Shown: in pieces, positions 1-14,860 of the stretch
Layout: every line of letters begins with the position of its first letter
Numbering within the stretch: position 1 is the stretch's first letter
From: Bacillota bacterium
GTDB taxonomy: Bacteria > Bacillota > Clostridia > Lachnospirales > Lachnospiraceae
Length of the DNA stretch: 64,000 nucleotides
Reading direction: 5' to 3'
Assembly (NCBI GenBank): GCA_023395555.1
Contig: JAEWYQ010000025.1
Coordinates: 1 to 64,000, forward strand
Translations under genes and position numbers: made by a program
The notes under the pieces: model-generated
The model's input: only the letters and a program-made list of their open reading frames with translations
What the model was told of the DNA's origin: nothing
The model's database searches: none

Positions 1-216
1 AATACCGAGACTACCAGGAATACCGAGAAATTAGGGAATATCGGGGAAACAGGGAATATCGGAGAAATGGGGAATATCGCAGAAACAAAGGATACCGGAG
101 AAACCAGGGATACCGGAGAAACAAGGGATGCCGGAGAAACAGGGGATACCGGAGAAACAGGGGATGCCGGAGAAACAGGGGATGCCGGAAAAGAGGGCAA
201 CACCGCCGAAAGTTCG
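1..216 (+). repeat. In-frame 18-bp tandem repeat (coding minisatellite)
   Basis: Twelve successive 18-bp units start at base 1; the array may extend upstream. The best-conserved units (91-180) read GGAGAAACAGGGGATRCC with few changes; units at both ends have drifted. Each unit encodes one hexapeptide, so copy-number change would keep the frame. AGG/GGG changes at one codon exchange Arg for Gly and decide whether the collagen-like Gly periodicity is kept. Confidence 0.9.
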
Positions 217-411
217 AAGCATCCCGGAGAACAGGAATCAGACGGGCTGCTTCAGAATATAGCAGGAGAGACGGAAGACAGGCTGGGAACGAAGGAGAAA
301 GAGCCGAAGCAGAAGAAGCAGCCGGTGACTTCCCCGGAGCTTGGTAAGGGAAATCAGAATCCAGAGGATGAGACTACAGTCAGAGATTATTTTATAGCAG
401 CGGAGGGATGA
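1..411 (+). CDS. Collagen-like repeat protein, C-terminal part (5' end outside window)
   Basis: The reading frame is open from base 1 to a TGA at 409-411, so the start lies upstream. The first ~72 visible residues are hexapeptide repeats of the form (N/D)-(T/I/A)-G-E-T-(G/R), which in the better copies place Gly at every third position as in collagen-like Gly-X-Y tracts. After the repeats comes a charged, Lys/Glu/Gln-rich low-complexity tail with no membrane segment, ending [11 protein letters not shown]. The stop is 3 nt before the next start, so the gene is the visible head of the Tad-like operon. Function is not known. The tail and repeats look like a disordered stalk or linker, but whether the protein is secreted cannot be judged without its N-terminus. 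Confidence 0.75.
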
Positions 412-414
412 GGA

Positions 415-1074
415 ATGACATGTATTGGATACATCGGAGAAGAAGCATATGATCTGGTTCTTTATATTGGCCGCACTCTTGCCGCCTTGAACCGGCGCAT
501 ACTGATCATAGATATGACCCGGTCCGGGGCTATGACAAACGCTCTGCACCATGGAATGGATTTGGATAGTGACAGCGGCATAATCCATTACCGCGGTATT
601 AATTACATCAGAAGGGTACCTTCTTCGGAGGAAATGGAGCTTTACGAGACGGGGGTGATTCTGGCGGTTTTCGGTTATGATTACAATCAGGAACTGTTTC
701 CGTGCAACCGGCTTATTGCTGTAACAAATACCTTTCCCCATATCGTGGACAAGATTAATCTCTGCATCAATGAAGCAGAATTGCCCAAGGACAGGCTCCG
801 GCTGCTGATACGGGATGTGGTTTCCGCCGATGATGTGGAGCAGGTAAAGAACAGAGTCAGCTTCGCTTATGAGGAGGAGCCGTCCAACTATCTGTATCTG
901 GAGCTTACGGATTATCTGTGTGCTGTGAGATGTCAGGAGACTCAGACTGTTAATTTCGAAAATATTTCCCAGGGGATGAAGAATTATATACTGTGCAGCA
1001 TCCGCCAGATGCTTCCCGAACTGAGCTCCGTCCGGATTAAGAGAGCAATGCATCTGGCAAGAAAGGGCAGGTGA
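415..1074 (+). CDS. Degenerate MinD/TadZ-like protein without P-loop
   Basis: A 219-residue protein starting 3 nt after the previous stop with a GAGGGATGAGG ribosome site. The N-terminus (CIGYIGEEAYDLVLYIGRTL, then RRILIIDM) has the beta-helix-beta pattern of SIMIBI-class ParA/MinD ATPases, but the position where a Walker A loop should lie has no GK[ST] motif. The family guess rests on this pattern and on its place directly before a second ParA-like gene and a CpaF-like ATPase, where Tad systems carry TadZ/CpaE. The protein is probably a localisation or assembly factor that does not hydrolyse ATP. It is followed after 4 nt by the next gene. Function otherwise unknown. Confidence 0.7.
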   Translation: MTCIGYIGEEAYDLVLYIGRTLAALNRRILIIDMTRSGAMTNALHHGMDLDSDSGIIHYRGINYIRRVPSSEEMELYETGVILAVFGYDYNQELFPCNRLIAVTNTFPHIVDKINLCINEAELPKDRLRLLIRDVVSADDVEQVKNRVSFAYEEEPSNYLYLELTDYLCAVRCQETQTVNFENISQGMKNYILCSIRQMLPELSSVRIKRAMHLARKGR

Positions 1075-1078
1075 GAGA

Positions 1079-12707: not shown

Positions 12708-12777
12708 AAGGGATCCGGAGACCGGCTGCTTCTTTCATTCAAAAGACCAAACAACAGGATAGAGGGGAGGTAGCCGA

Positions 12778-13812
12778 TTGAAGATTTATCATTTTATATT
12801 GATATTTTTGATCTTCTTTTTTGCGGCGGTCATAAAGACAGATATACAGATTGGAGAAATGAAAGAAATCGAGAGAGAAAAAGCAGAACTTACAGAAAGT
12901 CTGGATTCAGCCGCATCGGATGCGATTAATTACCTGGCCGCCTCCGGAAGATATGGGACCAGTTCAATTGAAAAGGAAAAAGTGATAAGCACTTTTTTTA
13001 CTTCCCTTTATGTCTCCCTCGGCATTATTTCTGACCGGAATAAGCAGGCGGAACTGGAGCTTTATATCCCGGTAATTCTCTTATGTGATGCAGACGGATT
13101 TTATGTATATTATTACGAGGACTATGAAGGGGAATACGGAGAAATCCTTACCCAAAGAATGTGGTCGGAGAAAATGCCATATTTTTATCAGGATACAGAC
13201 TTTATCTACGGATTTTCTTTGGCAGATGAAGTGGACTTATATGATATTAATAATCTCTTTCAGGATGCTGCAAAAGTCAGAAAAGAGAACTATCATTTGA
13301 TTCAAACGGAGGAATATTATAAAGAGTTTAGAAAAGCGAATCCGGGGAGCATCCTTCTGAATGATGAAGTGTATCACACGGTCAGAAAAACAGCAATTAT
13401 GAGTCAATTGGAAGAAGTCCTTTCCTTCTACACAAATCAACATAACTATATCGCACGCCAGCATGGGATCACCTATCAGTTTAGTTTCCCGCCAGGGCAG
13501 AGAGAGGAATGGGCGCAATACCTCGATGATGTGAACTTGGTGGTAGTATTTCAGGGCTATCCATATGGCACAGGTCAGGATTATACCTTTAACAAAATAG
13601 CCTCCTCCGGCGCAAATGTTTTAAAGAAGCCGATTTATTTTGTTGAAGAGAGGAGCTGGTATTTTCTGGCGCACAAGGCGGGATGTCCGAAGCTTATTGG
13701 AAATACCATGATCCTGGAGGAGGCATTTGACAGCCTGCTGGAATGTGCCAAAATAGGCGCTTATTGTGATGACTGTATTGAAAATGGCGCAAGGGCGCCG
13801 ATTCTAAAATAA
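12778..13812 (+). CDS. TadE-like membrane-anchored protein of unknown function
   Basis: 344 residues from a TTG start at 12778, chosen because AGAGGGGAGG lies at 12761-12770 and the N-terminus begins with a membrane helix directly (residues 4-18). A Glu/Lys-rich helix with LDSAASDAINYLA follows, typical of TadE-like subunits. The body has aromatic-rich strands (DGFYVYYYEDYEGEYGE) and a Cys-rich C-terminus with CAKIGAYCDDC. No enzymatic motif is recognised. It sits in the operon between the giant surface proteins and the metalloprotease, 70 nt after the former and 19 nt before the latter. Probably a structural or assembly subunit of the machine. Confidence 0.7.
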   Translation: MKIYHFILIFLIFFFAAVIKTDIQIGEMKEIEREKAELTESLDSAASDAINYLAASGRYGTSSIEKEKVISTFFTSLYVSLGIISDRNKQAELELYIPVILLCDADGFYVYYYEDYEGEYGEILTQRMWSEKMPYFYQDTDFIYGFSLADEVDLYDINNLFQDAAKVRKENYHLIQTEEYYKEFRKANPGSILLNDEVYHTVRKTAIMSQLEEVLSFYTNQHNYIARQHGITYQFSFPPGQREEWAQYLDDVNLVVVFQGYPYGTGQDYTFNKIASSGANVLKKPIYFVEERSWYFLAHKAGCPKLIGNTMILEEAFDSLLECAKIGAYCDDCIENGARAPILK

Positions 13813-13831
13813 TGAGGTAAAAAGGGGAAAG

Positions 13832-14860
13832 ATGAATCTGCTATTTTCTTTGATTTTTTCTACGGTATTAAGCTTTCTGTTTCATATCATCATGCATGAA
13901 ATTGGTCATTTTATTGCCGGACTGCTAACAGGATGGAGATTGGTTCACATACAAATTTTTTGTTTTGTATTTACAAAAAACACTCATAATACTTCCTTCC
14001 AAATAAAAAAAATAAATTCTATTAGCTGTCAGTGTATTATGTATCCGAAATCGAATATGAGTGACTCAAGCTGCTATACACTGGGCGGCATATGCATGAA
14101 TGCGATGTTGGCTTTGATTTTTCTGTACGAACTAAATACCTTACCAATGGTCGGAGTTAGGTGGATATTCACTTTTTGCTTCTTCTCATGCGGCATATCC
14201 GTATTTCTTATGAATGCTGTTCCGAATACCAAAAAGATATGCAATGATATGGCCTGTTATCTCTTATGTAAGAAAGAAAAGTATACACATTATATCCATA
14301 ACGTTCAGTTGACGGTGGCAAAACAGCTTTCGAAGGGGTTGAGCTACCGGAATTGTGAAACACCTGTTTTAAAAGAAAACATAGAAGCAAATGATATCCT
14401 GGCATATCAAGTGATATTGGAATTTTACTATTATCTTGACTGTGACCTTTATTACCGGGCCAAAAGTACACTTGAAAAGATAGATCGTGACCGGCATATC
14501 AGCCGTGGAGTCTATAAAATTATTATGCTTGAGACATTATACTATGATTTATTCATGGATATTTTAAATAAGACAATTCTGGTTTTGAATCGAAATCCTT
14601 TTTATAGAGATCTCGATAGTTATATACAAAAATATGAAACGGCTGGAGATATTCATTCAGAGAGAGTGAAAGCGATTAGAAAGGCATATCAATTTTATAG
14701 AAATGGAGATATTCAGGGAGGAGTTCAGTCATTGGATGAGGCGATTGCAGGAATGCGGAAAATGGGGGCCTTATATGCAGGGGAGAAAATCTTCTGCTTA
14801 GATCAATTAGAGGGGATCCGTAATATCCTGCGCCGGGATTTGCTTATGACAAAACTGTAA
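13832..14860 (+). CDS. S2P/M50-like intramembrane zinc metalloprotease with helical C-terminal domain
   Basis: 342 residues from ATG 13832 (AAAGGGGAAAG site). The first helix carries HEIGH (22-26), the zinc motif of site-2 proteases. A later membrane segment has LGGICMN (84-90), like the G-x-x-x-N motif, and NAVPNTKKICND (128-139), matching the third-ligand motif N-x-x-P...D. All metal-ligand positions thus appear intact. Residues from about 180 are helical, possibly TPR-like (YYLDCDLYYRAKSTLEKID). It is the last gene of the Tad-like run. No A24 prepilin peptidase is in the window, so processing of the pilin-like subunits or of an operon regulator by this protease is an attractive inference, not shown. 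AT-rich compared with its neighbours. Confidence 0.82.
   Translation: MNLLFSLIFSTVLSFLFHIIMHEIGHFIAGLLTGWRLVHIQIFCFVFTKNTHNTSFQIKKINSISCQCIMYPKSNMSDSSCYTLGGICMNAMLALIFLYELNTLPMVGVRWIFTFCFFSCGISVFLMNAVPNTKKICNDMACYLLCKKEKYTHYIHNVQLTVAKQLSKGLSYRNCETPVLKENIEANDILAYQVILEFYYYLDCDLYYRAKSTLEKIDRDRHISRGVYKIIMLETLYYDLFMDILNKTILVLNRNPFYRDLDSYIQKYETAGDIHSERVKAIRKAYQFYRNGDIQGGVQSLDEAIAGMRKMGALYAGEKIFCLDQLEGIRNILRRDLLMTKL

Follow-up and report, generated by a model that had tools for sequence, protein, structure and literature searches.

Known Tad-type systems and the present locus

The canonical Tad (Flp, type IVc) pilus, whose diversity and platform fission are treated in the account of Denise et al. 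(2019; PMC6668835), shares a TadA/CpaF-type ATPase, a CpaB/RcpC-like SAF-domain protein, a TadZ-like protein and probably a TadB/C-like platform with a gene cluster lying at the start of a 64,000-nt contig stretch of a Lachnospiraceae bacterium (the window). This cluster, with its relatives in other genomes termed here the cassette, differs from the canonical system in being without Flp, TadV, TadE and TadF, in an ATPase with a mostly GxQ Walker A motif and, in the window's clade, an N-terminal transmembrane (TM) segment, in a probably fused platform, and in its other pilin-like families and DUF5704 partner. A few tad-like loci without a prepilin motif, tadV being present, were reported in five named hosts by Imam et al. 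(2011; PMC3244431), and the 'no Flp_2' group of that paper, as far as its description goes, resembles the cassette in having no prepilin-signal protein and tad genes far removed from their counterparts in other Clostridia, yet differs in its reported tadV and less distant tadA. The Myxococcus Kil system, a Tad pilus with interchangeable minor-pilin tips, likewise joins a Tad-type motor to large minor-pilin-like proteins with variable domains, but as outlined in PMC8460266 and PMC12075869 a major pilin and a secretin belong to it and cleavage sites are predicted. No secretin is among the listed cassette genes, no profile search having been aimed at secretins. From the pseudopilus of type II secretion systems (T2SS) the cassette differs in having no match to the T2SS platform family and no A24 peptidase in 61 of 62 loci. 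While tad-like loci lacking prepilins have thus been known since 2011, the split giants set out below are new here; none of cassette, DUF5704 link or split giants was found described in the literature searched, subscription papers and preprint servers lying outside that search.

A conserved cassette with a Tad-type motor

With slightly better than even confidence, the cassette is read as a dedicated Tad-derived envelope machine displaying a short pilin-like tip complex. At the level of sequence, its ATPase, CpaB-like, TadZ-like and probable two-unit platform proteins are linked to four families of single-pass proteins (C0, C7, C2 and C9), small and giant and each with an N-terminal signal anchor, instead of to Flp, TadE, TadF and TadV. 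A first-pass annotation had proposed that this is a lineage of its own, derived from Tad and lacking Flp and A24, a proposal that, for genes in cis, is supported by conserved loci, null results with hidden Markov models (HMMs) and a split in the ATPase tree.

A protein search with the ATPase found at least 431 relatives. In a family sample of 397 genomes centred on Mobilitalea, itself counted, 43 carry the long ATPase (at least 190 bits); the next genomes, at 102 and 96 bits, match only in part, and shorter TadA-like proteins follow at 82 bits or less. The class sample yields a match in 33 of 391 genomes (E ≤ 1e-30; G002 is in both samples), and 27 plasmid records match, 22 of them covering at least 80% of the query. 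No viral relatives were found with the two sequence patterns used. Genome G049 has three long TadA-like ATPases, each on its own contig, and the long matches of G135, G207 and G228 are broken by two to four in-frame stops. Some database records name the ATPase 'Flp pilus assembly complex ATPase component TadA', and one C0 protein is entered as 'ABC transporter permease'.

Gene content was read in 62 loci, many ending at contig edges: 25 window-type loci from a contig scan, including Herbinix hemicellulosilytica and Mobilitalea sibirica, 20 from a wider Lachnospiraceae sample overlapping the window's clade (G002 and G004 are shared), and 17 further loci. All 18 window-type loci with at least 4 kb upstream show the order TadZ-like, CpaB-like, C5, TadZ-like, ATPase, some with a small two-TM gene (C12) between the first two, so that these genes rather than canonical flp and tadV stand just upstream. 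The five plasmid loci read (Butyrivibrio proteoclasticus pCY186, Cohnella herbarum, Lysinibacillus sphaericus, Paenibacillus amylolyticus and Thermobacillus composti) all run CpaB, C5, TadZ-like, ATPase, platform, C0, a gene of about 125–138 residues (C7 by HMM in three of five), C2 core, C9 and, later, DUF5704. Among the 20 wider Lachnospiraceae loci, several of them cut by contig ends, the ATPase and platform occur in 20, TadZ-like in 19, C0 in 18, C2 and C9 in 17, C5 in 13, CpaB in 10, C7 in four and M50 in one. The corresponding counts over 15 class-level and plasmid loci, a tally that excludes L098 and L099 of the 17 further loci, are 15 for CpaB, TadZ-like, ATPase, platform, C0, C2 core and C9, 14 for C5, four for C7, three for DUF5704, one for A24 and zero for Flp and M50. 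These tallies over 35 loci define the cassette as an ATPase–platform module with C0, C2, C9 and TadZ-like, mostly also CpaB and C5; DUF5704 and SLH-type genes often join it. Since the same order recurs in window-type, wider Lachnospiraceae and class-level genomes and on plasmids of Bacilli, the arrangement is more than chance. On the Bacilli plasmids (L096–L099) its neighbours include parA/parB, ftsZ or replication-relaxation genes.

The 613-residue ATPase is, as first annotated, CpaF-like: its profile (A1) matches solved CpaF at 3.2e-18 vs 3.9e-9 for a VirB11-like protein, hhalign against canonical TadA gives 99%, and the Walker A motif reads GDQNSGKT. By hydropathy, 23 of 24 window-type ATPases and 10 of the 20 wider ones begin with an N-terminal TM segment, against none of six canonical ones, and in the tree a branch with 100/100 support separates 44 long ATPases from six canonical TadA proteins of relatives' genomes. 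The platform consists of two units, each comprising TM segments with about 125 aa between them, and is probably a TadB+TadC-like fusion; hhalign gives 53% for its halves against each other. The likeness to TadB/C is weak: hhalign gives 25% for the N-terminal half with canonical TadB over 206 columns and below 1% for the C-terminal half with TadB or TadC, and the T2SSF Pfam model matches none of 26 platform members. Two MinD-like proteins had also been proposed, of which only the one directly before the ATPase gains weak support; C5 has no detectable MinD/ParA relation and no Pfam or NCBIfam match. The former, which reads HGQGQTS and lacks the Walker A lysine, is homologous to the second TadZ-like copy upstream in relatives (hhalign 100%), a family in which AAA_31 matches (E ≤ 0.1) appear in 8 of 25 members, the best at 0.001. 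The frame cut by the window's left edge ends ...DYFIAAEG, and C6 proteins at the same place in L006 and L008 end ...YFFATEG and ...YFIPVEG; a SAF domain is found in two of three scanned CpaB-like relatives (23.2 and 22.2 bits, cut-off 21), the window holding the tail only.

HMMs for TadV and Flp, the former trained with one wrong-strand open reading frame (ORF; from L040) and having its own training loci as positive controls, gave no match in the window, the 25 window-type loci or the 20 wider loci. The 17 further loci contain no Flp and one A24 gene (L089), so that absence of A24 from the cluster has one exception in 62 loci. There (genome G726) the gene lies about 6 kb from the ATPase and shares its gene run with C9 and DUF6382-FHA; L089 is a hybrid, a divergent cassette followed by DUF6382-FHA and A24 genes, and perhaps preserves an older state. 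The Flp pilin noted as missing is therefore absent from all 62 loci and from the window, while the noted lack of an A24 enzyme applies to the locus (61 of 62, and the window) but not to the cell, A24 being found in 42 of the 43 relatives' genomes. In only three of these 43 does it share a contig with the ATPase, the distance being about 43 kb in G064, more than 70 kb in G039 and more than 500 kb in G354, though an A24 gene on another contig may be nearer than it appears. Class-level genomes are without an A24 match in 5 of 32 cases, and in all 6 of 75 locus-bearing genomes (G255, G477, G521, G614, G718, G753), and also G008, have none, with the proviso that assemblies may be incomplete. Of ten relatives searched, nine have a canonical Tad locus elsewhere in the genome, Flp1 and TadV included; these loci (L034–L042) encode a TadA of about 403 aa, TadB, TadC, Flp1, a DUF5702-type giant, TadE, TadV, TadF and a DUF6382-FHA protein, and adjoin a glycerol-kinase-like gene in eight of nine (by eye), TadA being broken in one.

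A strict class III site, defined as Gly or Ala followed by Glu at +5 within a hydrophobic stretch, occurs in none of 72 C0, 23 C7, 50 C2 and 25 C9 rows (0 of 170), and in 9/9 Flp1, 8/8 TadE and 5/9 TadF controls. A polar residue plus Gly ahead of the hydrophobic stretch is seen in 17 of 26 wider C0 rows (Lys-Gly in 16; that of L081 differs) and in none of the 46 window-type rows, at least six of which (L005, L006, L007, L012, L013, L017) were shortened by the ORF caller; this also affects some C2 and C7 rows and, if its frame is started at 12859, the C9 of the window, and since the N-terminus is lost the motif cannot appear in shortened rows. C12 was considered as a hidden Flp and rejected: by eye, the nine copies seen each have two TM segments and show no class III site. 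The three small pilin-like genes announced at first reading indeed encode three small bitopic proteins, two of C0 and one of the related family C7 (hhalign 91–92% over 123–124 columns). An AlphaFold2 model of the second C0 protein (predicted local distance difference test, pLDDT, 81.6) has one 53-residue helix (residues 8–60) and an alpha/beta head with four strands of 7–8 residues; among the folds listed, Foldseek and VIA gave no usable match for it. C9 had been called TadE-like, but kinship to TadE or TadF finds no support, hhalign giving 1% and 3%, respectively; it matches no known family.

The two giant anchored paralogues are real, being 47% identical in alignment A2 and carrying Big_3 domains (1.6e-16 in giant 1) and zinc-ribbon-like Cys motifs. 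An HMM built from 14 short C2 proteins (148–185 aa) matches each twice, model positions of about 1–89 at the N-terminus and 89–155 at the C-terminus (E 1.1e-17 and 1.1e-6 in giant 1), and both ends are found (E < 1e-5) in 23 of 28 giants, the remaining five ending at the edge of the fetched stretch; a single giant of the 28, that of L066, comes from outside the window's clade. By this evidence the giants are a C2 core of 150–185 residues split by an insert of 585–890 residues made of immunoglobulin (Ig) and zinc-ribbon modules, Big_3 and zinc-ribbon-like motifs belonging to this insert, which in the window covers about residues 90–976 of giant 1 and 96–680 of giant 2. Giant 2 residues 460–645 resemble LigA, Rib and Big adhesin domains. 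Its model, of low overall confidence (pLDDT 70.5, predicted template-modelling score 0.33), starts with a 51-residue N-terminal helix, after which come a short strand and a helix of 12 residues, the order also seen in the C0 model. Rather than Zn-knuckle passengers displayed or secreted by the machine, as once supposed, the giants therefore look like split pilin-like core proteins.

Extent of the unit and neighbouring genes

The compact same-strand run is present from 415 to 14860, with the expected overlaps (7 nt between ATPase and platform at 3809–3815, ATGA at 6888–6891 between the second and third pilin-like genes). The limits first given to the unit, 1–14860, require correction at both ends, bases 1–411 being a CpaB/RcpC-like tail and the unit continuing to 20732 through the SLH-like and DUF5704 genes, beyond which ordinary chromosomal genes follow (by eye). 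Pfam and NCBIfam searches of the window proteins exceed cut-offs only for M50, Big_3 and DUF5704.

Table 1. Genes of the cassette and its immediate neighbours in the window.
Feature	Position	Strand	Basis or remark
C-terminal tail of CpaB/RcpC-like (SAF-domain) protein	1–411	+	gene start precedes window
C5, 219 aa, conserved, no known fold assigned	415–1074	+	no Pfam/NCBIfam match
TadZ/MinD-like protein	1079–1987	+	weak MipZ/MinD/AAA_31 matches
TadA/CpaF-like ATPase, 613 aa, N-terminal TM segment	1974–3815	+	CpaF profile match, Walker A
Platform protein, probably TadB+TadC-like fusion	3809–5833	+	two TM units, hhalign
Pilin-like protein 1 (C0)	5885–6385	+	C0 family; longest ORF begins 5852
Pilin-like protein 2 (C0)	6421–6891	+	C0 family; AlphaFold2 model
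C7, third pilin-like protein, distant C0 paralogue	6888–7268	+	hhalign C0–C7
Giant 1, split C2 core at residues 1–89 and 977–1042	7327–10458	+	C2 HMM, Big_3
Giant 2, split C2 core at residues 6–95 and 681–732	10461–12707	+	C2 HMM
C9, bitopic, N-terminal TM, conserved last core gene	12778–13812	+	no known family
M50 (site-2-type, S2P) intramembrane protease, clade accessory	13832–14860	+	Pfam M50
Exported SLH-like protein, 413 aa	15071–16312	+	SLH sub-cut-off; homologues in relatives
Exported DUF5704 giant, 1457 aa	16359–20732	+	Pfam DUF5704

The S2P protease was correctly recognized (M50, 32.2 bits against a cut-off of 27.2, E 8.5e-8, HEIGH motif). As a universal peptidase of the cassette it is ruled out by its presence in only one of 20 wider and none of 15 class-level and plasmid loci, and by sequence it is an accessory marking the window's clade, not core. 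The SLH-like protein scores 14.5 bits, below cut-off, and has homologues in L064, L065, L066 and L080 and pieces in L007 and L021; a protein at the same place in L099 has three SLH repeats (122.6 bits), and by HMM no homology to the window protein was found. The DUF5704 giant (75.8 bits, cut-off 25) has homologues in nine Lachnospiraceae loci, one of them a 121-aa piece, and in all five plasmid loci. A protein of about 200 aa beginning MRKKSHISLAK follows the window unit (21941–22552), a similar one follows L065 and L067, and pyrD/pyrE-like genes (by eye) precede several wider loci (L064–L069), so that the site seems conserved. Farther along the window (28476–29624) two neighbouring genes resemble type I signal peptidases by eye.

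Apparent +1 frameshifting in certain relatives (L090–L093, L100–L110) stands apart from the cassette. The ATPase genes of four low-GC relatives (L090–L093: G608, G748, G544, G782) contain a CGG codon in the Walker A box, exactly where the reading frame moves by +1; three of the four show a second such shift, likewise at CGG, within the platform gene. CGG is very rare on a 216-kb contig from one such relative, where ORFs of 100 aa or more hold 61,626 codons and only 12 are CGG. At five of these 12 a stop follows within ten codons while the +1 frame stays open over 71 to at least 300 codons; no such pattern is seen at the remaining seven, and three of the patterned codons lie outside the ATPase and platform genes. 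One CGG shift falls in uvrA, with UvrA domains before and an ABC domain after it. CGG reassignments are on record for low-GC Firmicutes (PMC8629427), while no description of frameshifting at CGG was found among the literature listings searched.

Proposed mechanism, competing readings and significance

In a Tad-derived display machine, the ATPase and platform would lift the pilin-like proteins into a short pseudopilus or tip complex, whose subunits would keep their leaders or have them cut by something besides an in-cluster A24 enzyme. The pseudopilus might cross the thick wall through a CpaB collar, by analogy with RcpC as presented in PMC12307814. In the window organism the C2 heads would carry a long stalk of Ig-like and zinc-ribbon modules, so that, as we propose, large adhesin-like tips are presented; anchoring in the wall may fall to the SLH-like protein, the DUF5704 giant would be an exported partner, and attachment to surfaces or other cells is the likely use. 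Tad pili with large variable minor-pilin tips are known, and the TadEFG minor-pilin model, which proposes these proteins as functional tips (PMC12075869), may serve by analogy as the closest working model. A bolder version is possible but doubtful: an A24-free machine of the type IV filament class with uncut subunits, spread over Bacillota chromosomes and plasmids, which in the window's lineage built giant adhesin tips by inserting metal-braced stalks and had M50 replace the lost trimming.

The likeliest competitor, though we hold it rather improbable, is an ordinary Tad variant for which a canonical locus supplies maturation (TadV), perhaps also an Flp shaft, in trans, the cassette adding a motor and tip set. 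The separate Flp1 and TadV loci of relatives, the near-universal A24 in their genomes and the A24 and DUF6382 genes in cis in L089 all suit it, and MSH loci, which have no peptidase, are thought to borrow one according to a passage in PMC6668835. What it leaves unexplained is that no pilin-like row has a Glu+5 class III site and that window-type C0 rows, allowing for the shortened ones, have no Lys-Gly pair; the genomes without an A24 match also weigh against it, incomplete assemblies permitting. In an unlikely alternative the pilin-like proteins form a type II-like piston, with the DUF5704 giant and the SLH-like protein as its exported cargo. In its favour, C9 is followed by a DUF5704 gene in the window, among Lachnospiraceae loci and on each of the five plasmids read, but the window protein has an ordinary hydrophobic signal (by eye) and could use Sec, and DUF5704 is absent from all 12 class-level loci L083–L094 (20 kb each, L087 only 9 kb).

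That the M50 protease took over signal-anchor trimming from A24 in the window's clade appears quite improbable. The 12 M50 loci and the 12 loci with a Lys-Gly C0 do not overlap, L079, outside the clade, has M50 and no Lys-Gly site, and HExGH is kept in 11 of 11 M50 family rows, window included. This exclusion is suggestive only, since most M50 loci form one clade and probably just two independent events are involved; moreover, no C0 was called in one of the 12 M50 loci, L021, L076, L077 and L082 have neither M50 nor the site, and M50 enzymes usually cleave within the membrane helix following a first cut. A role in mating or transfer of large plasmids, suggested by the 27 ATPase-bearing plasmid records and by ATPase neighbours such as parA, ftsZ, replication-relaxation genes or a conjugative DNA-transfer gene, is very unlikely, all 27 plasmids being typed non-mobilizable and the window, like several wider loci, adjoining ordinary chromosomal genes.

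For type IV filaments, removal of the leader from the subunits by an A24 peptidase is regarded as a requirement. A widespread cassette with a motor, no class III subunits and, with one exception, no linked peptidase makes the dispensability of this step testable. The split giants represent a way of constructing a filament tip, the insertion of a long stalk into a small core protein, that was not met in the literature searched. Finally, with C0, the C2 core, C9 and C5 matching no Pfam family above cut-off, a name for the cassette would account for many genes of Gram-positive bacteria now listed as hypothetical.

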